Origin: Nocardia sp. NBC_01730
Lineage (GTDB): Bacteria > Actinomycetota > Actinomycetes > Mycobacteriales > Mycobacteriaceae
Assembly (NCBI RefSeq): GCF_035920445.1
Contig: NZ_CP109162.1
Location: 2,232,001 to 2,296,000, forward strand
Length of the DNA: 64,000 nt
Reading direction: 5' to 3'
Shown here one piece after another: positions 1 through 14,122 of this stretch. The notes under the pieces were generated by a model. It did no database searches. It saw only the letters and a program-made list of their open reading frames with translations, and had not been told where the DNA came from. The stretch's first letter is position 1. The number at the start of each line of letters is the position of its first letter. A program made the translations under genes and the position numbers.

Positions 1-1
1 C

Positions 2-229
2 CGGCGCGGCCCGACCGGCAGTACCGCGCTGATCGAGCACATAATGCTGGTGCAGCACTACCGGCGCTACCCGTTCCGCGATCCAGACCTGCCGGAGACG
101 CTGCTGCCTACCGGCTGGCGCGGCCGCGCCGCGCACGAGGTGTTCACCGAGTGCCACGACGTCCTGCGCGCCGAAGCCGAGTCGTTCGTCGCGTCGGTCG
201 CCGCAGCCCCGACAGCCGGCGTCACCTAG
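2..229 (+). CDS. PaaX-family transcriptional regulator, C-terminal end (partial)
   Basis: The window opens inside this gene. The frame starting at base 2 is open and ends at TAG 227-229. The visible 75 residues include the stretch HYRRYPFRDPDLPETLLP followed by a Trp-Arg-Gly, which resembles the C-terminal domain of PaaX-type repressors of aromatic catabolism. Family members are about 250-300 residues long, so only about the last quarter is present. PaaX repressors usually respond to an aryl-CoA ester. The operon just downstream appears to make salicylyl-CoA, so a local regulatory role is likely. That role is inferred from position. Confidence 0.7.
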   Translation, partial: RRGPTGSTALIEHIMLVQHYRRYPFRDPDLPETLLPTGWRGRAAHEVFTECHDVLRAEAESFVASVAAAPTAGVT

Positions 230-328: not shown

Positions 329-2035
329 ATGTCACTCCCAGATCAGCACCCCGCTCCCCCGCCGCCCCTGCGCGTCGCGTGTATAGGCGGTGGCCCTGGT
401 GGTCTATTCGCCGCCATTGCGCTCGCGCACGCCGTGCCGGGCTCCGTCATCGACGTGTTCGAGCGGAACAGCGAATCCGATGTGTTCGGTTTCGGGGTCG
501 TATTGTCCGACGCAACACTGGAGAATGTCGACACGGTCGACACGGTGCTGCGGGATGCGCTGGCCGCCCACGGGCGGCACTGGGACAGCATCGAGGTCCA
601 CCTCAAGAACGCCACGGTCGCGGCCGGCGGCAACGGGATGTCGGCCATTCACCGTCGCGAACTGCTCAGCGCCCTGCGGCAGCGGGCGACAGCGCTGGGC
701 GCGCGGCTGCACTTCTCGACCGAGGCGGATGTCGATGAGCTCGACGCCCGGGGTGAGTACCACCTGATCGTGGCGGCAGATGGCACCAATTCCGCTGTGC
801 GGCAAAGATTCCTCAACGAACTCGGACATTCGGTCGAGCAGGCGGCGGTCGAGTTCATCTGGTTCGGCACCACCTACCAGTTCCGGGGGCTGACCTTCCT
901 GCACGAACAGTCCGAGCACGGCAATTTCGCCGTGCATGGATACCCGATCGGCTCCGGTCTGAGCACTTTCATCGTCGAGACCGACGAAACCACCTGGCGC
1001 CGTGCGGGTCTCGACAGATTCGACATGTCCGCCCCGCCAGGTACGTCGGACGAGGTGACCCAGCGCTACCTCGAGCGGCTGTTCGCCGACCAGATCGACG
1101 GACAACCACTGGTGGCCAACAACTCTCGCTGGGCCAACTTCCGCACCCGCCGGACCGACCGCTGGCATACCCGCGGCACCTGCGGCACACCGGTGGTGCT
1201 GCTCGGTGACGCCGTACACACCGCGCACTTCTCGGTCGGTTCGGGCACCAAGATGGCCATGGAGGACGCCGCCGCGCTAGCCGCTACCGTTGCCGAGCAT
1301 CCCGCCGATCTGGAGGCCGCGCTCACTCGATTCCAAGAGATCCGCAGGCCGCAGGTGGCGAAGATCCAGGACTCGTCGATGCCGAGCCTGTCGTGGTGGG
1401 ACCACTTCGGCGAGTACTACCGCGCCTTCGAGCCGTGGCAATTCGGATTCCACTTCTTCAGCCGATCCATCTCGGCGGAGAAGATCCGCGTGCGCGACGG
1501 CGAGTTCATCGCGGCCACCGAGCGTGCGTGGCACGCCGAATTCGGTGCGGCCCCGCTCGACACGCCGCTGCGGCTGGGGTCGACCACGTTCGGCTCCCGG
1601 ATGCTTCAGCTGACCGAGTGCGGAGACGACCGGATACGCCTCGGGGACGGCGGCTCAGCACTGTCCGCGGTGCGTGGGGCAGCAGGCGGTGACGGCACGG
1701 TCCCCCTCGTCATCGCCCCCGACATCGATGCCAACTCGCTGCCTGCCGATGTTCGCGCCGAGTTGGACCGGCTGTGCGCGTCGCGGCCCGACGCGGTTGT
1801 CGTGCGCGGCGGCACCCCGCTGTCGCGAGTCCTGTGCTCGGAGCACGTGCGCTTGAACCGCCACATCCCGTCGATCCTCGTCGACGCGCCCACCGCCGTC
1901 CGTGCGCGCCGGGCCGTCGACGAGCACGATTGTGCGGCCACGCTGATCCTGTCCGGGCGCGCCGACGCGGTGGCGTTCGAACCGGATCCGCAGCCTGCCG
2001 CCCGGGTTCCGGCCGATGTCGAGGCGGCACGATGA
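329..2035 (+). CDS. FAD-dependent salicylyl-CoA 5-hydroxylase-like monooxygenase
   Basis: This 568-residue flavoprotein belongs to the PHBH-fold aromatic hydroxylases. It has the FAD-binding GGGPGGLFAA motif near residue 22, a DGTNSAVR motif near 150, and GDAVHTAHFSVGSGTKMAMEDA-like sequence near 295-315 (GD motif plus active-site loop). The sequence best resembles the hydroxylase half of salicylyl-CoA / 2-aminobenzoyl-CoA monooxygenases. The likely reaction is 5-hydroxylation of salicylyl-CoA to gentisyl-CoA. Residues from about 405 onward exceed the usual 400-residue hydroxylase and start PLRLGSTTFGSRMLQL, which resembles the opening of an Old Yellow Enzyme barrel. That region is far too short for a full barrel. 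ATG 329 follows a GATAGGG-like site. The stop overlaps the next start (ATGA). Confidence 0.72.
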   Translation: MSLPDQHPAPPPPLRVACIGGGPGGLFAAIALAHAVPGSVIDVFERNSESDVFGFGVVLSDATLENVDTVDTVLRDALAAHGRHWDSIEVHLKNATVAAGGNGMSAIHRRELLSALRQRATALGARLHFSTEADVDELDARGEYHLIVAADGTNSAVRQRFLNELGHSVEQAAVEFIWFGTTYQFRGLTFLHEQSEHGNFAVHGYPIGSGLSTFIVETDETTWRRAGLDRFDMSAPPGTSDEVTQRYLERLFADQIDGQPLVANNSRWANFRTRRTDRWHTRGTCGTPVVLLGDAVHTAHFSVGSGTKMAMEDAAALAATVAEHPADLEAALTRFQEIRRPQVAKIQDSSMPSLSWWDHFGEYYRAFEPWQFGFHFFSRSISAEKIRVRDGEFIAATERAWHAEFGAAPLDTPLRLGSTTFGSRMLQLTECGDDRIRLGDGGSALSAVRGAAGGDGTVPLVIAPDIDANSLPADVRAELDRLCASRPDAVVVRGGTPLSRVLCSEHVRLNRHIPSILVDAPTAVRARRAVDEHDCAATLILSGRADAVAFEPDPQPAARVPADVEAAR

Positions 2036-4239
2036 CCACGACACAGATCTCCCCCGCCGATACCTCGTCCATGGCGCGTGCGCGGCTCGACAAGCTCTTC
2101 CGTCCGGCCTCGGTCGCAGTCATCGGCGCATCGGCGGTGCCAGGCAAACTCGGGTCAGTGATGCTCGAAGCCGTCACATACGGCGGCACCGGCATCCGAG
2201 CGGTCTATGGGATCAACCCGAGGCTCGAGGGTGAGGGCATGCATCCCTCCTTGCGTGCGGCCACCGAATTCCATGCCGGTCCACTGGATTTGGCTGTGCT
2301 ATGTGTTCCTGCGGCTGCCACTCCCGACGCGTTGCGCGAGGCAGCGGACTGTGGTGTCGGCGCTGCCCTGATCTGCTCGGGCGGATTCGCCGAGGTCGGC
2401 GGCGAGGGTGTCGGCTTACAGGAGGAGCTGGCGAAGATCATCGCCGCCACGGGTATTCGGCTGCTGGGACCGAACACCTCGGGATTCTTCCGGCCCGGCG
2501 AGGCGACGGTGAGCTTCGTGCCGACTGTCCGGCACATCGTCCCAGGATCGGTCGCTGTCGTCGCGGCCAGCGGCGGAATGAATCATGCGCTGTCGTTCCT
2601 GCTGTCCGAGCACCGCGTCGGCGTGGGGCTCGGCGTGGGACTGGGTAACTGCGTCGACGTCACCCATGTCGACGTGCTCGAATATCTGCACACCGATCCG
2701 TCGATCACCGCTGTCGCACTGCATATCGAGTCGGTCGACGACGGCGCGGCACTGCTGTCCGCCCTTCACACGGTCAGCACGGACAAGCCGGTGGTGGCGA
2801 TGGCGGTCGGACGCAGCGACGTGTCGGCGTTCTCCGAATCCCACACCGGCGCCCTCGCGACCTCGTGGCGTACTACGCGTGCCCTGCTCGCGGAAGCCGG
2901 TGCCGTGGTGGTGGATTCGGAGCAGCAGCTGGTCGACGCGTTGGCGGTGCTGAGCCGCACGAGGCTGCCCGCCTCCGCCGCGCCGGGCATCGGTGTGGTC
3001 ACCGCGCAGGCAGGCCCCGGCTTGGTGCTACTGGATCAGCTTCTAGCAGACGCGGTTCGGGTACCTACGCTCGCTGCGCCGACCCAGCAGCACCTCGCGC
3101 AGTTACTGCCCCCGATGACCTACCAGTCGAATCCGGTGGACACCGGCCGACCGGGACCGACGTTCGATGCCGTGCTCTCGGCCACCGCTGCCGATCCCGG
3201 GATCGATGCCATGGCGGTCTATGCGCTCGCCGAGCCCGATGCTGTCGATCTCGCCGACGCGGTGCTCCGCTCCGGGGTGCACGAGCGCATGCCGGTGGTG
3301 CTCGGCATCGGTGGACCGGCTTTCGCTGTCGCCGGAACTGCCTGTGCAGCAGCCGAATTAGCCGTCCCTGTACTGTCGAGTCCTTCCGCGCTCGCGGTCG
3401 GGATCCGGGCACTCGTAGCAGATGCGAGGGCTCGGTATCTGCACTCAGGAAACGGTGAGACGCCGGTTTCGCAACGCGCTCCGGCCTCCCTTCTCTCCTC
3501 TGCCGAATCCACCGGTGTGGATCCGGCCGGGACTCCGGCTCGGCCGCCCGGCTCGGCGGACACAAACAAGCCGGCCCCGGCTATCGCTCTGCCGGCCGAC
3601 GAGGCGATCGCCAAGGATCTGCTCGACGCGCTGGAAATCGCCACCCCACCTCGGCGAGTGTGTACCGACCGTGCCGCGGCCCACCGCGCACTGACCGACC
3701 TGCCACTCCCGGTGGTGGTGAAGATTCTCGATCCCGCGGTGCTGCACAAGACCGAAATCGGCGGGGTACACCTGAACATTCGCACCACCACGGAACTCGA
3801 CGCGGCGCTCGACGCTCTTTACGCGATCGGCGCACCCGCCTATCTGGTGGAGAGTATGGCCGAACCCGGTGTCGACTTGTTCCTCGGCACCCGCCGCGAC
3901 CCGGTGTTCGGCCCGATCGTGGTTGCCGGTTCGGGCGGTACAGCGGCCGAGGCGATCGGGGATGTCGCCATCCGCAGCCACCGCGTCACCGTCGCGGGCG
4001 CGGCCGCCATGCTCGACGACCTGCAGTGCGCCGCCCTGCTGGACGGCTGGCGCGGCGGCCCGGTCCTCGATCGGGGTGAATTCGCGCGCATCGCGGTGAC
4101 TCTCGCGCACTACCTGACCGACCACCCGGAAATCAGCGATATCGAAATCAATCCCCTGCGGCTGACCGCGACCGGCCTGATCGCGCTCGACTCGGTCGTC
4201 GTGGCCACGCAGGACCGGCTCGAAGGAGAGCTGCCGTGA
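2032..4239 (+). CDS. NDP-forming acyl-CoA synthetase (fused alpha and beta domains)
   Basis: This 735-residue protein has the order CoA-binding domain (RPASVAVIGASAVPGKLG, about residues 24-41), succinyl-CoA-ligase-like domain and C-terminal ATP-grasp domain (about 515-735, with LPVVVKILDPAVLHKTEIGG). The phosphorylated-His loop of this superfamily is visible as ESHTGALATS near residue 270. Such enzymes make an acyl-CoA from acid, CoA and ATP with release of ADP and phosphate. Operon position suggests an aromatic acid such as salicylate as substrate, which is unusual for the family and is inferred. The start is ATG 2032, overlapping the hydroxylase stop; the reading frame is open further upstream, but that would lie wholly within the hydroxylase gene. 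The end overlaps the next gene by four bases (GTGA). Confidence 0.75.
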   Translation: MTTTQISPADTSSMARARLDKLFRPASVAVIGASAVPGKLGSVMLEAVTYGGTGIRAVYGINPRLEGEGMHPSLRAATEFHAGPLDLAVLCVPAAATPDALREAADCGVGAALICSGGFAEVGGEGVGLQEELAKIIAATGIRLLGPNTSGFFRPGEATVSFVPTVRHIVPGSVAVVAASGGMNHALSFLLSEHRVGVGLGVGLGNCVDVTHVDVLEYLHTDPSITAVALHIESVDDGAALLSALHTVSTDKPVVAMAVGRSDVSAFSESHTGALATSWRTTRALLAEAGAVVVDSEQQLVDALAVLSRTRLPASAAPGIGVVTAQAGPGLVLLDQLLADAVRVPTLAAPTQQHLAQLLPPMTYQSNPVDTGRPGPTFDAVLSATAADPGIDAMAVYALAEPDAVDLADAVLRSGVHERMPVVLGIGGPAFAVAGTACAAAELAVPVLSSPSALAVGIRALVADARARYLHSGNGETPVSQRAPASLLSSAESTGVDPAGTPARPPGSADTNKPAPAIALPADEAIAKDLLDALEIATPPRRVCTDRAAAHRALTDLPLPVVVKILDPAVLHKTEIGGVHLNIRTTTELDAALDALYAIGAPAYLVESMAEPGVDLFLGTRRDPVFGPIVVAGSGGTAAEAIGDVAIRSHRVTVAGAAAMLDDLQCAALLDGWRGGPVLDRGEFARIAVTLAHYLTDHPEISDIEINPLRLTATGLIALDSVVVATQDRLEGELP

Positions 4240-7040
4240 ACACCCGAATTCCCGTGTCGATCGACGGTGTCGTGCCCTGGCCCGACGACGTCGCAGCGGA
4301 ATACCGAAGGGCAGGGTACTGGCAGGGCAGATCGCTGGCCTCCCACATCGCGGAGCAGGTCGCCCGCCGCCCGGATGACGAGGCCGTCGCGGACGGCGCG
4401 ACCCGCCTGACCTACCGGCAGCTGTGGGATCGGGCCGCATCCTGCGCGCAGGCGCTGCTCGATCTGCACATCGCGCCGGGCGACCGCATCGTGTTGCAAC
4501 TGCCGAACTGCTGGGAGTTCGTCGCGCTGACACTCGGCTGCCTGCGCATCGGGGTGGTGCCGGTGATGGCACTGCCTGCGCACCGGCAACACGAGCTCAC
4601 GCATCTGGCCGCGGTCGCCGGAGCCGTCGCGATCGTGGTGGCCGACATCGACCGTGACACAGATCTGCGGCAGGTCGCCCAGCAGGTCGCGGTCCAGGTG
4701 CCCAGCCTCCGCTCCGTCCTGGTGCATGGTGAATTGTCCTCCGGCTCACCGGAATATGCTCCGGAGAACAGCCTTCGAGCTACTTTCGACACGACCGTGC
4801 GCTTCGCCGAAGCCGATTACGAGCCCACGGGCGCCGATGTCGCCTGCATGCTGCTCTCCGGCGGCACCACCGGATTGCCCAAGCTGATCGTCCGCACCAA
4901 CGACGACTACGCCTACAACATTCTGCGGTGCAATGAGGTTTCCGAATTCGATTCGAGCACGGTCTATCTCGGTACGCTGCCCTGCAGCCACAATTTTCCG
5001 CTGGCCTGTCCCGGCGTGCTGGGCACACTGTTCGTCGGTGGCCGCGCCGTAATGCTGCCTTCGCCGTCCCCCGAGCGCGCGTTGCGCACCATCGACGCCG
5101 AGAGCGTCACCATCGCGGCCGTCGTTCCCGCGATCGCGCAGAGCTGGATCGAGTATCAGCGTGAGCGAAAGATATTGTGCGGCGACAGCTTGCGCGTGCT
5201 ACAGGTGGGCGGCTCACGCATGCCCGACGAGCTTGCGGCCCGGGTCGAACCGGTGCTGGGCGCACGGCTGCAGCAGGTGTTCGGTATGGCCGAGGGACTG
5301 ATCAACATGACCCGGCTCGACGACGACCTGGAGATCATCCTGATCACCCAGGGCAGGCCGGTCAGCGACGCCGACGAGATCCTGGTCGTCGACGAGAGCG
5401 GCAATCCGGTGCCCGACGGCGTTCCGGGCGCGCTGCTCACCCGCGGCCCCTACACCCCGCGTGGCTATTTCCGCGCCCCCGAACACAATGCGCGCGCATT
5501 CACCACCGACGGCTGGTACCTCAGCGGAGATATCGTCCGACGCCGCCCGGACGGCAACCTGGTCGTCGCGGGCCGGGACAAGGACATGATCAACCGCGGC
5601 GGGGAGAAGATCTCCGCCGAAGAAGTCGAGAACTTCGCATACCAACTCGACGGCGTCGAGATGGCCGCCGCCGTCGCCATGCCCGACCCCGTACTCGGTG
5701 AGCGCTTGTGTCTGTATCTGACCGTAGCGCAAGGCTATTCGATAGCCCTGGCCGATGTCGCCGCCGTGATGAACACTGCCGGGGTAGCCAGGTTCAAGCT
5801 TCCGGAACGGCTCGAGCTCATCGCCACGATGCCCACCACGAAGGTCGGCAAGATCGACAAGAAAGCGCTGCGCGACGACATCCGCGAACGCCTCGCCCGG
5901 GACCACGCGGAGCCGTGGCCTCCCATCGCCACGACGACCGTACTCGACTCCGCCGCACAGGAAGTAGGCCCGATGACCGCCTCCGCACCGCTCGCTGAGC
6001 TGGATCAGCTCTACCGCGATTTCGAGACCGCTCACCTGAACCCGCTGTGGACCCAGCTCGGCGATCTGATGCCGATGACGCCCACCGCCAAAGCCGTTCC
6101 CTTCGTATGGCAATGGTCGACGCTGTATCCACTGGCGCAGCGCGCCGGTGGCCTCGTGCCGGTCGGCCGTGGCGGCGAGCGACGCGCCATCGCGCTGGCG
6201 AACCCAGGCCTGGGCGGCGTGCCATACGTCACGCCCACACTGTGGGCAGCCATCCAGTATCTCGGCCCGAAGGAGACCGCGCCCGAACATCGCCACAGCC
6301 AGAACGCGTTCCGGTTCGTCGTCGAAGGCGAGGGCGTGTGGACCGTCGTCAACGGCGACCCCGTGGCGATGCGCCGCGGCGACCTGTTGCTCACCCCCGG
6401 CTGGCACTTCCACGGCCACCACAACGACACCGACCAGCCGATGGCGTGGATCGATGGACTCGACATCCCGTTCGTCCACTACACCGACGCGGGATTTTTC
6501 GAGTTCGGATCCGACGGCGTCACGGACGATTCCACACCCGATGTATCGCGCGCGGAACGGCTGTGGGCACATCCCGGCTTGCGACCGCTCGTCGGCCTCG
6601 ACGCCGAAGTCAGCTCGCCGATCGCCGCGTACCGGTGGGAACACACCGATGCCGCGCTGCGCGAGCAACTCGCCCTCGAGGACGAGGGATATGGCGCCAC
6701 GACCGAGCCCGGGCACGCCGCCGTCCGCTATACCAATCCGACCACCGGTGGTGACGTCATGCCGACGCTCCGCGCCGAATTCCATCGCCTGCGCGCCGGC
6801 GCGCACACCCGTCCGTGTCGTGCGGTCGGGTCGGCCGTCTACCAGGTGTTCGAGGGTTCAGGACGATTCCGCCTCGGCGACGAGGTCAGTGCGGTCGGCA
6901 AGGGCGATCTGATCGTCGTGCCGTCCTGGACGCAGTGGTCCATCGAGGCCGACACCGAGTTCGACCTGTTCATGTTCTCCGACGCACCGATCGTCGAACG
7001 CCTCCACCTCGACCGCGTCCACATCGCCGAAGGAATCTGA
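4236..7040 (+). CDS. Natural fusion: salicylyl-AMP/CoA ligase and gentisate 1,2-dioxygenase
   Basis: This 934-residue protein joins two enzymes. Residues 1 to about 565 are an EntE/DhbE-type aryl-acid adenylating enzyme, with LLSGGTTGLPK near 206, GRDKDMINRGGEKIS near 446 and the C-terminal catalytic lysine region KVGKIDKK near 538. Residues 580-934 are a bicupin gentisate 1,2-dioxygenase with metal-binding EHRHSQNAFRFVVEGEG near 684 and TPGWHFHGHH near 722, plus a second cupin near 850-920. The parts would respectively activate salicylate and open the gentisate ring to maleylpyruvate. Met580 (ATG 5973) is preceded by AGGAAG at 5959-5964 with 8-base spacing, so the dioxygenase may also be made alone. 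GTG 4236 follows AAGGAGAG with 5-base spacing. Confidence 0.8.
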   Translation: MNTRIPVSIDGVVPWPDDVAAEYRRAGYWQGRSLASHIAEQVARRPDDEAVADGATRLTYRQLWDRAASCAQALLDLHIAPGDRIVLQLPNCWEFVALTLGCLRIGVVPVMALPAHRQHELTHLAAVAGAVAIVVADIDRDTDLRQVAQQVAVQVPSLRSVLVHGELSSGSPEYAPENSLRATFDTTVRFAEADYEPTGADVACMLLSGGTTGLPKLIVRTNDDYAYNILRCNEVSEFDSSTVYLGTLPCSHNFPLACPGVLGTLFVGGRAVMLPSPSPERALRTIDAESVTIAAVVPAIAQSWIEYQRERKILCGDSLRVLQVGGSRMPDELAARVEPVLGARLQQVFGMAEGLINMTRLDDDLEIILITQGRPVSDADEILVVDESGNPVPDGVPGALLTRGPYTPRGYFRAPEHNARAFTTDGWYLSGDIVRRRPDGNLVVAGRDKDMINRGGEKISAEEVENFAYQLDGVEMAAAVAMPDPVLGERLCLYLTVAQGYSIALADVAAVMNTAGVARFKLPERLELIATMPTTKVGKIDKKALRDDIRERLARDHAEPWPPIATTTVLDSAAQEVGPMTASAPLAELDQLYRDFETAHLNPLWTQLGDLMPMTPTAKAVPFVWQWSTLYPLAQRAGGLVPVGRGGERRAIALANPGLGGVPYVTPTLWAAIQYLGPKETAPEHRHSQNAFRFVVEGEGVWTVVNGDPVAMRRGDLLLTPGWHFHGHHNDTDQPMAWIDGLDIPFVHYTDAGFFEFGSDGVTDDSTPDVSRAERLWAHPGLRPLVGLDAEVSSPIAAYRWEHTDAALREQLALEDEGYGATTEPGHAAVRYTNPTTGGDVMPTLRAEFHRLRAGAHTRPCRAVGSAVYQVFEGSGRFRLGDEVSAVGKGDLIVVPSWTQWSIEADTEFDLFMFSDAPIVERLHLDRVHIAEGI

Positions 7041-7046
7041 GCACCG

Positions 7047-7865
7047 ATGAAACTCGCCACCCTTCGCCTCGACGGCGCCACCGCGCCGGTTCTCGTCGGT
7101 GACACCACGGCAACCGTCATCGACGGGTATGCGGACCTCTCCGAGCTGCTGACCGCACCCGACTGGAAAACGTTGGCGAAGCAGGCATCCGGCCGAACTG
7201 TCGACCTTTCCGACGCCGACTACGCACCGGTGGTACCGAATCCGGGCAAGATCATCTGTGTCGGGCTCAACTACGCCACCCACATCAAAGAGATGGGCCG
7301 GGAGCTACCCCGGTATCCGACCCTGTTCTCGAAATTCAAAGAGGCCCTGACCGGCCCGTACGACGACGTGATCGTGCCGGCCTACGCCGCCTCCGAGTTG
7401 GATTGGGAAGCGGAATTGGCCGTCGTCATCGGCAACGAGGCCTATCAGGTCTCGGCGGCCGACGCCGAGACCTACATCGCGGGCTACTCGGTGATCAACG
7501 ACTACACCATGCGCGACTACCAATACCGCACGCTGCAGTGGGACCAGGGCAAGACGTTCGAAAAGACCAGCGGCTTCGGACCAGTCCTGGTCACCGACTA
7601 CGCCCTCGGAAGCCGAATCGAAACACGCCTCGACGGCCGGGTGATGCAGAACGCCACCACCGACGATCTCGTCTTCACCCCCGCGAAGCTGGTCGACTAC
7701 ATCTCCCACATCGTCACTCTGCAGCCCGGCGACGTGATCATCACCGGAACCACCGGCGGCGTCGGCCATGCCCGCAAACCCCCGCGTTACATCCAGAACG
7801 GAGAGACGGTCGCCGTCAGCATCGAAGGCATCGGCACGATCCGCAACAGGACGATCGTCGAATAG
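7047..7865 (+). CDS. Fumarylacetoacetate hydrolase family protein, probable fumarylpyruvate hydrolase
   Basis: This 272-residue protein carries the FAH-fold signature: GLNYATHIKEMG near residue 72, the metal-binding ELDWEAELA near 117-125, NDYTMRDYQ near 151, and the terminal GDVIITGTTGGVG loop near 231. The family hydrolyses C-C bonds of 1,3-dicarbonyl compounds. Directly after a gentisate dioxygenase and before a maleylpyruvate isomerase, the expected substrate is fumarylpyruvate, giving fumarate and pyruvate. The start ATG lies six bases after the preceding stop, with GAAGGAA just upstream inside the previous gene. Substrate assignment rests on context. Confidence 0.85.
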   Translation: MKLATLRLDGATAPVLVGDTTATVIDGYADLSELLTAPDWKTLAKQASGRTVDLSDADYAPVVPNPGKIICVGLNYATHIKEMGRELPRYPTLFSKFKEALTGPYDDVIVPAYAASELDWEAELAVVIGNEAYQVSAADAETYIAGYSVINDYTMRDYQYRTLQWDQGKTFEKTSGFGPVLVTDYALGSRIETRLDGRVMQNATTDDLVFTPAKLVDYISHIVTLQPGDVIITGTTGGVGHARKPPRYIQNGETVAVSIEGIGTIRNRTIVE

Positions 7866-7876
7866 GTTCCTGGACA

Positions 7877-8596
7877 GTGGAATTCGATGAACTCGCACTC
7901 GACGAGCAACTACAGATCGCCCGCCGCGGCACCGCCTACTTCGCCCAGCGTCTGGCGAGATTCTCCGACGCCGACCTCGGCGGAAACACGCTGCTGCCCG
8001 GATGGACACGCAGGCATCTGCTCGCCCACATCGGCTACAACGCAGCCGCCCTGTGCCGCTTACTGGACTGGGCGGCCACCGGCATCGAAACACCGATGTA
8101 CGCCTCCGCCGAACAACGGGCCCGCGAAATCGACGAGGGATCCACCCTCAGTCCGGCTGCCCTGCGAAACTTGTTCACCCACACTGCCGCCCGCCTTGAT
8201 GAGAAGTGGCGCAACCTACCGCCGACGGCATGGGCGGCCGAGGTGCGCACGGCCCAAGGCCGCGTCGTCCCCGCCGCCGAGACGACATGGATGCGCACAC
8301 GTGAGGTATGGATACATGCCGTCGACCTCGCGAGCGACGGCCGCTTCGGCGACTTTCCCTCCCCGGTGCTCGGCTCCCTGCTCACGGACATTGTCGGTAT
8401 GTGGCGTAAGAAGGGCCTCGGTATCGGGCTCGTCCTGGCGGTCGAGGCAGCCACACCGATAGCGGTACACGAGGATTCGACTCACACGGCCAGGGTCGCC
8501 GGCCCACTCGCCGCCGTCGCCCGGTGGGCTGCCGGCCGCGGCGGGGCCGGCGTGCGCATCGAAGGCCACCTCGATGGGCCGCCAGGCTGGCTATGA
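7877..8596 (+). CDS. Mycothiol-dependent maleylpyruvate isomerase
   Basis: This 239-residue protein has the DinB-like four-helix metal-binding fold of actinobacterial maleylpyruvate isomerases. HLLAHIGYN lies near residue 47, and TREVWIHAVDL near 141-151 holds the glutamate and histidine expected as zinc ligands. It would convert maleylpyruvate to fumarylpyruvate with mycothiol as cofactor, bridging the dioxygenase and the FAH-family hydrolase. The start chosen is GTG 7877, 11 bases after the previous stop. The frame stays open further upstream inside the hydrolase gene, but the family N-terminus matches this GTG. It is the last gene of the gentisate operon. Confidence 0.82.
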   Translation: MEFDELALDEQLQIARRGTAYFAQRLARFSDADLGGNTLLPGWTRRHLLAHIGYNAAALCRLLDWAATGIETPMYASAEQRAREIDEGSTLSPAALRNLFTHTAARLDEKWRNLPPTAWAAEVRTAQGRVVPAAETTWMRTREVWIHAVDLASDGRFGDFPSPVLGSLLTDIVGMWRKKGLGIGLVLAVEAATPIAVHEDSTHTARVAGPLAAVARWAAGRGGAGVRIEGHLDGPPGWL

Positions 8597-11848: not shown

Positions 11849-12505
11849 TCAGCCGACGCGCTCGAGCGGTGCGGAGTCGATGGCAAAGTCGGCGGCGGTG
11901 GCCGTGCGCACCTCGTCGACGGTGACTCCCGGTACCGTGTCCACCAGCAGCAGACCATGTTCGGTGACGTCGAGCACCGCCATATCGGTGATGATGCGAT
12001 GCACGCAGCCCAGGCCGGTGAGCGGCAGAGTGCACTGCTCGAGGATCTTGGGTTCGCCCCTGCGGGAGACGTGTTCCATCATCACGATCACGCGGCGGGC
12101 GCCGTGCACCAGATCCATCGCGCCGCCCATGCCCTTGACCATTGCGCCGGGAATCATCCAGTTGGCCAGGTCACCGCGGGCGCTGACCTGCATGGCGCCG
12201 AGCACGGCGACGTCGACCTGCCCGCCGCGGATCATGCCGAACGACTGTGCGGAGTCGAAATAGGAGGCGCCGGGCAGCACGGTGATGGTCTCCTTGCCCG
12301 CGTTGATCAGTTCAGGATCGAGTTCGTCCTCGGTCGGATACGGGCCGACACCGAGCACGCCGTTCTCCGAGTGCAGCACTACGGTGATGTCGTCGGACAG
12401 ATAATTCGGCACCAACGTGGGCATGCCGATCCCGAGGTTGACATATTGGCCGTCCGCGAGTTCCGCGGCAACCCGGGCCGCCATCTGTTCACGAGTCAGC
12501 TTCAT
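11849..12505 (-). CDS. pcaJ: 3-oxoadipate CoA-transferase subunit B
   Basis: This 218-residue subunit carries the family signature: [13 protein letters not shown] near residue 24, the catalytic-Glu SENGVLGVG near 47, and [20 protein letters not shown] near 95. With subunit A it transfers CoA from succinyl-CoA to 3-oxoadipate, the step before the PcaF thiolase. ATG 12505 overlaps the subunit A stop by four bases. The last residues (SAPLERVG) end at the usual length, so the adjacent transposase relic has probably not truncated it. Confidence 0.88.
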
Positions 12506-13248
12506 GGGCGCACCGTCCTGTTCTCGATTCCGACCTCGACCTTGCCCACGGGCACGACGCGCTGCACATGGATACCCGGGGTGTGCACCTCGTCCGGGTC
12601 GAGCTCGCCCGGCTCCACCAGATATTCGACCTGGGCGATGGTGATACGGCCCGCGGTGGCGGCGGGTGGATTGAAGTTGCGGGCGCTGGCCCGGTACACC
12701 AGATTGCCGTGCCGGTCGCCCTTCCAAGCATGTACCAAGGCGTAGTCGGTGACGATGCCGCGCTCCATCACATAGGTGACCCCGTCGAAGACGCGGGTCT
12801 CCTTCGGCGGGCTCGCGATCGCTATGCCACCGTTGCCGTCGTAGCGCAGTGGAAGTCCACCCTCGGCGACCTGGGTACCAACACCCGCGGGGGTGAAGAA
12901 GGCCGGGATGCCCGCACCACCGGCTCGCATGCGTTCGGCGAGGGTGCCCTGCGGTGTCAGTTCCACCTCGAGCTCACCCGCCAGATACTGGCGCGCGAAC
13001 TCCTCGTTGGAGCCGACGTAGGAGCTGATGGTGCGCAGGATCCGATGCGCGGCGAGAAGCACACCGAGCCCGAAACCCGAAGTGCCGCAATTATTGCTGA
13101 CCACTTCCAAACCGGTGGCACCCTGCACGAGCAGCGCGTTGATGAGCACTTCGGGAACTCCGACGAGGCCGAATCCACCTACGGCGAGCGAGGCGCCATC
13201 CGGTATGTCCGCGACCGCGTCGGCGGCCGCGGCAATGACTTTGTCCAT
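12502..13248 (-). CDS. pcaI: 3-oxoadipate CoA-transferase subunit A
   Basis: From ATG 13248 this is a 248-residue subunit with [19 protein letters not shown] near residue 18, the CoA-binding [12 protein letters not shown] region near 51, and [18 protein letters not shown] near 106. It pairs with PcaJ. In-frame starts further upstream (13263 and 13290) would add residues without family support. It is transcribed away from pcaH, so one intergenic region controls both arms of the pathway. Confidence 0.87.
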
Positions 13249-13402
13249 CACGAGCACCACCATAACCGAAACTGTGCGTATTGTGAACATTGATCCGCAT
13301 AGCGAACATTTCTGCCGTCGTACGTTGCCCAGGGCACACGGCGAGCCCTATGATGTTCGTATACCGCAAAGATGTCCACATTCCGAACGTGAGGTCTCTA
13401 GC
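13249..13402. promoter_or_regulatory. Divergent pcaI/pcaH promoter region with repeated GAACATT motifs
   Basis: The 154-base region between the divergent arms contains GAACATT at 13285-13291 and again at 13304-13310 (19 bases apart), and an inverted copy, ATGTTCG, at 13353-13359. The nine-base form CGAACATTT at 13303-13311 also occurs in front of the transporter gene at 23226. An IclR-type regulator is encoded within the pcaH operon and such proteins bind short palindromic or repeated boxes, so these are candidate sites. Binding is inferred. Confidence 0.45.
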
Positions 13403-14122
13403 ATGCTCCACCTGCCATCGCGGTACCGCCGGATCGAGAAGGACGAGGAGGCGCCCCTCGACTTTCCGGACTACCGGACGACCGCTCTACGCCACCCGAA
13501 GCAGCCGCTGAACCCGCTGCCGCAGGGGCTCGGCGAGTTGACCGGTCCGGTGCTCGGCGAAGGCCGGGTCACCGCCGCGGACGCCAATCTCACCCTCGTC
13601 AACGGCGGCGAGGCCATCGGGCAGCGCATCGTCGTCCACGGCCGCGTGCTGGACAGCGACCGCAAACCGGTACCGAACACCTTGGTCGAGATCTGGCAGG
13701 CCAATGCCGCGGGACGCTATCGGCACCAGGACGACCAGTGGCCGGCACCGCTGGATCCGCACTTCGACGGTGTGGGCCGGGCCTTGACCGACACCGACGG
13801 CCACTACTCGTTCACAACGATCAAGCCCGGCGCCTACCCGTGGAGCAATCACTACAACGCATGGCGACCGGCACACATCCATTTCTCCCTGTTCGGCCGG
13901 GCATTCACCCAGCGCCTGGTCACCCAGATGTACTTCCCGGACGATCCGCTGTTCTTCCAGGACCCGATCTACAACTCGGTGCCCGACGGCGCCCGCCAGC
14001 GCATGATCAGCGTGTTCGACTACGCCGCTACCACCGACAACTGGGTGATCGGCTTCCGCTTCGATATCGTCCTGCGTGGCCGCGACGAGACCCCGTTCGA
14101 GAGCGACGACCACGATGAGTGA
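13403..14122 (+). CDS. pcaH: Protocatechuate 3,4-dioxygenase beta subunit
   Basis: This 239-residue subunit holds the Fe(III) site of the enzyme. The ligand tyrosines and histidines are visible in GRYRHQDD near residue 101 and NHYNAWRPAHIHFSLFG near 150-166. It cleaves protocatechuate to 3-carboxy-cis,cis-muconate. ATG 13403 was chosen over longer in-frame starts because the protein then begins like known PcaH proteins and GAGG lies at 13391-13394. Its end overlaps pcaG by eight bases. Confidence 0.92.
   Translation: MLHLPSRYRRIEKDEEAPLDFPDYRTTALRHPKQPLNPLPQGLGELTGPVLGEGRVTAADANLTLVNGGEAIGQRIVVHGRVLDSDRKPVPNTLVEIWQANAAGRYRHQDDQWPAPLDPHFDGVGRALTDTDGHYSFTTIKPGAYPWSNHYNAWRPAHIHFSLFGRAFTQRLVTQMYFPDDPLFFQDPIYNSVPDGARQRMISVFDYAATTDNWVIGFRFDIVLRGRDETPFESDDHDE

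Follow-up and report, generated by a model that had tools for sequence, protein, structure and literature searches.

Salicylate can be converted to gentisate through coenzyme A (CoA) thioesters, a route that the cluster description in PMC4591350 assigns to the gen genes of Rhodococcus opacus R7 (genC-genB-genA-genH-genI-genL). For Streptomyces sp. WA46, the pathway outline in a review (PMC4600096) lists a salicylyl-AMP ligase, a salicylyl-CoA synthetase, a salicylyl-CoA 5-hydroxylase, and a gentisate dioxygenase, and that outline mentions no fusion. Possession of such genes need not imply growth on salicylate, since R. opacus M213, as characterized in the relevant section of PMC4988695, has a contig with genes for salicylyl-CoA 5-hydroxylase and gentisate dioxygenase yet does not grow on salicylate; the CoA-dependent route was undetected in extracts of Rhodococcus sp. 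TFB, according to the passage on that strain in PMC3937715. Here, we report a single open reading frame of Nocardia sp. NBC_01730 that encodes both the ligase and the dioxygenase of an operon of this kind, a rare, local, and probably recent fusion of two neighboring genes of a known salicylate degradation operon and not a novel type of system. A search of open-license papers returned no recognized description of such a ligase-dioxygenase fusion.

Results

The window is the whole stretch of DNA analyzed, 64,000 nucleotides of contig NZ_CP109162.1 (positions 2,232,001 to 2,296,000); the host genome is 8.68 Mb long, assembled as one contig, and 99.94% complete. The window opens inside a PaaX-type regulator gene, of which it holds the 3' end (1..229, +; 270 amino acids, start upstream of the window; L181:5418-6230; Pfam PaaX, PaaX_M, and PaaX_C). 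Downstream on the same strand lie an FAD monooxygenase gene of genC type (329..2035; Pfam FAD_binding_3), a gene of genB type for an ADP-forming acyl-CoA synthetase-like protein (2032..4239; Pfam CoA_binding_2, Succ_CoA_lig, and ATP-grasp_5), the fused frame (4236..7040), a gene for an enzyme of the fumarylacetoacetate hydrolase family, likely fumarylpyruvate hydrolase (7047..7865; Pfam FAA_hydrolase), and a gene for a mycothiol-dependent maleylpyruvate isomerase-like protein (7877..8596; Pfam MDMPI_N; NCBIfam TIGR03083, above its cutoff). The monooxygenase is likely a salicylyl-CoA 5-hydroxylase; its best NCBIfam match is NF006101 (salicylyl-CoA 5-hydroxylase/oxidoreductase), at 388 bits, below the cutoff of 1078. 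Both junctions upstream of the fusion are overlaps (ATGA at 2032 and GTGA at 4236), as is common among coupled genes.

The hydroxylase, CoA synthetase, AMP ligase, and dioxygenase genes are consecutive on one strand, as in a gen/sdg-type operon. Gene roles and order match those of the R. opacus R7 gen cluster as described in PMC4591350, a comparison by role and not by sequence, with the difference that genA and genH are two genes in R7 and a single frame in the window. We therefore predict, from gene roles and order, a gen/sdg-type salicylate operon; its putative steps are those of the Streptomyces sp. WA46 pathway and would fit the salicylyl-CoA route as far as PMC4600096 outlines it. Elsewhere in the window, the translation of the frame at 13028-14122 resembles, by eye, an intradiol ring-cleaving dioxygenase and adjoins CoA-transferase-like frames (11849-13290, −; also by eye), which together probably belong to a second aromatic pathway. 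The host genome also has extremely long open frames, the longest of 14506 codons, in which adenylation-type matches recur; nonribosomal peptide synthetases are probably abundant in it.

The fused frame (4236-7040, +) begins with GTG and comprises 934 codons (934 amino acids in the open reading frame list); a frame scan found no stop codon in it between 5703 and 6100. Its Pfam domains are AMP-binding (residues 39-412), AMP-binding_C (463-539), and Cupin_2 (674-740), and a sequence search of the PDB matched residues 9-551 to the salicylate-AMP ligase 5wm2 and residues 586-930 to the dioxygenase entries 2phd and 3nst. By these domain and PDB matches, a salicylate-AMP ligase-like half of genA type (residues 1-560, 4236..5915) precedes a gentisate 1,2-dioxygenase-type half of genH type (residues 580-934, 5973..7040), which has a possible start of its own at ATG 5973 (Met580). 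Between them lie linker codons 561-579 (5916..5972, 57 nt). The first-pass annotation, which had read one unbroken frame for an aryl-AMP ligase and a gentisate 1,2-dioxygenase, is borne out on both counts: the junction is stop-free, and both names fit the Pfam and PDB matches.

The ligase half, with its adenylation and C-terminal domains, is an aryl acid-AMP ligase of the salicylate type by its best solved match, 5wm2 (529 bits), followed by the dihydroxybenzoate ligase 6e8o (514 bits). It scores 565.8 bits against NCBIfam TIGR02275 [(2,3-dihydroxybenzoyl)adenylate synthase], below the cutoff of 723.55. At one motif, the ligase half and 5wm2 read LACPG and two dihydroxybenzoate ligases read SSPG (3 of the 12 matched chains compared); its Cys/Ser position may be the site that sets substrate choice.

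Among solved structures, the cupin half is closest to the salicylate 1,2-dioxygenase (SDO) of Pseudaminobacter salicylatoxidans (2phd and 3nst), which itself has no ligase tether and aligns ungapped over 344 residues. All three iron-binding histidines (SDO 119, 121, and 160) are present in the fusion, and the pocket residues Leu38, Arg83, Gln108, Ala125, Arg127, His162, Trp172, Asp174, and Leu176 are all kept (residues checked span fusion positions 604-742; conserved metal ligands and pocket residues as listed for gentisate dioxygenases in PMC11264262). Against NCBIfam TIGR02272, the half scores 272.4 bits, below the cutoff of 442.1; 2phd and 3nst reach 565 to 567 bits. At SDO position 106, the residue used here to recognize direct salicylate cleavage, SDO has Gly and the fusion has Ala672; the SDO variant G106A converts gentisate only and not salicylate, as stated in the account of that variant in PMC11109138. 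Four other residues point the other way: SDO Met46, Ala85, Trp104, and Phe189, which differ in the two other gentisate dioxygenases compared in PMC11264262, are shared by the fusion (M612, A651, W670, and F755), which would speak for an SDO-like pocket and against a gentisate-only substrate. Given the Ala at position 106, the cupin half is unlikely to cleave salicylate directly, and gentisate is its expected substrate, as predicted from these residues. No second dioxygenase of this type was found in the host genome at E values up to 1e-40.

The origin of the fusion is readable against its closest relative (G120), in which ligase and dioxygenase are separate and 84% and 90 to 91% identical, respectively, to the fusion halves. 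In the alignment, the ligase stop TGA of G120 falls on TGG of the window (5916..5918, Trp561). From the first base of this codon to the dioxygenase ATG there are 38 nt in G120 versus 57 nt in the window, a net change of +19 nt that puts the dioxygenase, which lies in another frame in G120, into the ligase frame. A 17-nt block carrying the ribosome site, CTCCGCCGCACAGGAAG, is identical in both. Since stop codon and frame both differ from G120, at least two changes separate the fused and unfused states. The suggestion in the first-pass annotation that a stop codon between two neighboring genes was lost is supported, the TGG aligning to the TGA of G120, but stop loss alone would be insufficient without the net +19-nt change.

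Among 22 distinct adjacent ligase-dioxygenase pairs, some from metagenome bins, the window's is the only fused one, and the 21 separate pairs include its two closest relatives; 14 loci where both genes lie close together but are ordered differently or encoded on opposite strands were left out of this count. The dioxygenase is in frame +2 relative to the ligase in nine of the 21, in +1 in six, and in the ligase frame in six (in one of these, L178, with an intervening gene). Ligase and dioxygenase are also separate at L183, a locus outside the 21. That relatives keep two genes had been named in advance as evidence against the fusion; this pattern, found in every other pair and at L183, shows that the fusion is not conserved across relatives, not that it is false. 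The in-frame arrangement was also considered as a sign of programmed readthrough and rejected, six in-frame pairs among 21 unfused ones being close to one third. In six of the seven nearest pairs (ligase identity of at least 74%), a possible dioxygenase start overlaps the ligase stop at −1, so the ancestor was likely an overlapping, coupled pair. We read the fusion, from this comparison, as a putatively recent, lineage-specific stop loss.

A sequencing artifact is an unlikely alternative. On this reading, the true base at 5918 would be A, TGA would close the ligase, and the dioxygenase would be a gene of its own in the same frame, with ATG 5973 as its start. A single base, known from one assembly of one strain, separates the fused from the unfused state, the ribosome site is preserved, and the frame shared by ligase and dioxygenase is ordinary, given the six unfused in-frame pairs; of four comparable joins in other proteins (see below), two also read frameshifted by eye. 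Against this, the genome is a single, nearly complete contig, the lengths of ligase, monooxygenase, and hydrolase are similar to those in G120 and another relative (G142), and reaching the fused state from that of G120 takes a frame change as well as a stop loss. An artifact would also need a substitution error, and substitution errors are rarer than indels in long-read assemblies.

Operons of this type are not confined to the window. The first four operon genes occur in the window order at 10 of 13 loci compared; at the other three (L176, L042, and L043), the dioxygenase is present and the ligase absent. The operon, with its first four genes in this order, is also carried by three plasmids whose sources were oil- or creosote-polluted soil and factory sludge; ligase and dioxygenase are annotated there as separate genes. 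For one of these, pDF01 of Rhodococcus sp. p52, the legend to a figure in PMC11357670 places the dioxygenase, isomerase, and hydrolase (matched by locus number) among dibenzofuran pathway genes; it labels two other genes salicylate 5-hydroxylases, so that source does not demonstrate the CoA route for this plasmid. An extra gene annotated as "hypothetical protein" lies between ligase and dioxygenase on pDF01 (L178:7674-8285).

The first-pass annotation had proposed a search for the same fusion in related genomes. Matches to the dioxygenase (E values up to 1e-40 for the genus and up to 1e-90 for the family, order, and class) were found in 40 of 150 genomes of the genus, 71 of 401 of the family, 43 of 397 of the order, and 31 of 394 of the class, in overlapping samples that each contain the window genome. 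In these samples, in which part of each genome's candidates was scored and matches at contig ends were uninformative, no second ligase-dioxygenase fusion was found. The three other matches in open frames of more than 900 codons (G187, 1079 codons; G1066, 959; G1115, 1084) were rejected as fusions, their extra length being out-of-frame or antisense readings of other genes, as was a frame of 853 codons (G763), which holds the dioxygenase only, with no ligase adjoining. Inspection covered these four frames; the others, of 400 to 860 codons, are too short for both enzymes.

In a collection of 5.77 billion proteins, of which the 7990 candidates sharing most words were scored, so that counts are lower bounds, at least 25 fusion-length proteins contain this dioxygenase, and four of them (P0001, P0002, P0070, and P0245) join it to a ligase. 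P0001 and P0002 (from ENA and JGI; probably metagenomic) have the same two enzymes in the same order as the window fusion, with junctions that look clean; they are 57% identical to the window protein and 69% identical to each other, and their linkers are different. P0070 and P0245 were rejected as clean parallels, the ligase end of the former and part of the dioxygenase of the latter reading out of frame by eye. Two further proteins join other enzyme pairs. In P0233 (1077 amino acids), an FAD monooxygenase and a ligase, both of this operon type, are combined, which shows that a second adjacent operon pair has been fused somewhere. P0240 (780 amino acids, 21 member sequences) combines an FAD monooxygenase and a gentisate dioxygenase; this fusion perhaps links consecutive steps and is better supported than the ligase fusion.

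These joins bear on whether the fusion is a selected bifunctional enzyme, its tether coupling pathway entry to ring cleavage through co-localization or fixed stoichiometry and its internal start tuning the ratio. The recurrence of the same join in P0001 and P0002 with different linkers, the joining of another operon pair in P0233, a linker modeled as disordered, and intact catalytic residues all speak for selection. We nevertheless judge this explanation very unlikely: the two steps are non-consecutive, the fusion is absent from all relatives examined, and only the four proteins named above, among the 25 or more of fusion length found in the 7990 candidates scored, join both enzymes. We infer that the fusion brings no special advantage.

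Constraint on the fused halves was measured against G120. The ligase half has a dN of 0.10 and a dS of 0.63, the dioxygenase half a dN of 0.05 and a dS of 0.64, and each of the four genes measured has a dN far lower than its dS. Lineage-specific changes in the dioxygenase number 19 in the window versus 7 in G120, compared with 68 versus 75 in the other three genes pooled (Fisher P value, 0.019, for one of four genes looked at, one of which was bound to look most extreme). The dioxygenase half has six unique residues at sites at least 95% conserved in 38 orthologues, the highest number among the 39 compared (others, at most four); over all sites its unique residues number 11, a total exceeded by three orthologues (14, 12, and 12). 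The excess of unusual changes hints, weakly, at altered constraint after fusion, which could be decay or adaptation. It would suit an early decay in which the pathway is dispensable in the species and the joined gene works poorly, an explanation to which we give little credence because all metal ligands and conserved pocket residues are kept, dN stays well below dS, and the remaining operon genes are intact.

The junction retains the features of a start site. The ribosome-binding-like sequence AGGAAG (5959..5964) lies inside the fused gene, 8 nt upstream of ATG 5973, and its pairing energy of −8.9 is close to but weaker than the −9.6 at the ligase start (both against a generic 16S tail). Pairing as good or better precedes 12 of 290 internal in-frame ATGs, drawn from all stop-to-stop frames of at least 350 codons in the window, real genes or not, and perhaps including ATG 5973 itself, so that the site is stronger than about 96% of them; 1.15% of 2000 random positions pair as well. 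The site pointed out in the first-pass annotation is therefore above chance level yet not unique. In a structure model of the fusion (mean pLDDT, 73.2; pTM, 0.58; built from 31 sequences), residues 558-584 around the junction have pLDDT values below 50 and are modeled as a flexible or disordered tether of about 27 residues.

Discussion

The explanation we favor, and consider probable, is that genes of a conserved operon were fused in this Nocardia lineage by stop loss and frame change, yielding a bifunctional product and some free dioxygenase. The net +19-nt spacer change would have aligned the dioxygenase with the reading frame of the ligase, and the stop TGA would have become TGG. The resulting two-enzyme protein would carry its halves on a flexible linker of about 27 residues, the ligase half activating salicylate to salicylyl-AMP for CoA thioester formation and the cupin half cleaving gentisate after three intervening steps. 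The first-pass annotation had called the two steps non-consecutive, which holds provided that both enzymes work as PMC4600096 outlines for the pathway. The substrates assigned to both halves are predictions from their sequence matches.

The old ribosome site before ATG 5973 has been preserved, and some free dioxygenase is probably made besides the fusion, as the first-pass annotation had proposed and with which that preservation is compatible. We infer two products, fusion and free dioxygenase, which would both be made and active. A broader version, in which one gene supplies the tethered ligase-dioxygenase and the free dioxygenase and, in addition, the arrangement is a recurrent actinobacterial solution that holds the first and the ring-opening enzymes in one complex based on the dioxygenase oligomer, seems to us highly doubtful.

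The locus is a clear case of gene fusion, with frame change and stop loss both readable against a close relative and the downstream start still present. It also carries a warning for annotation pipelines, which might label the gene a ligase and so overlook the sole gentisate dioxygenase detected in this genome. If active, the fusion would test the effect of tethering non-consecutive enzymes on flux.
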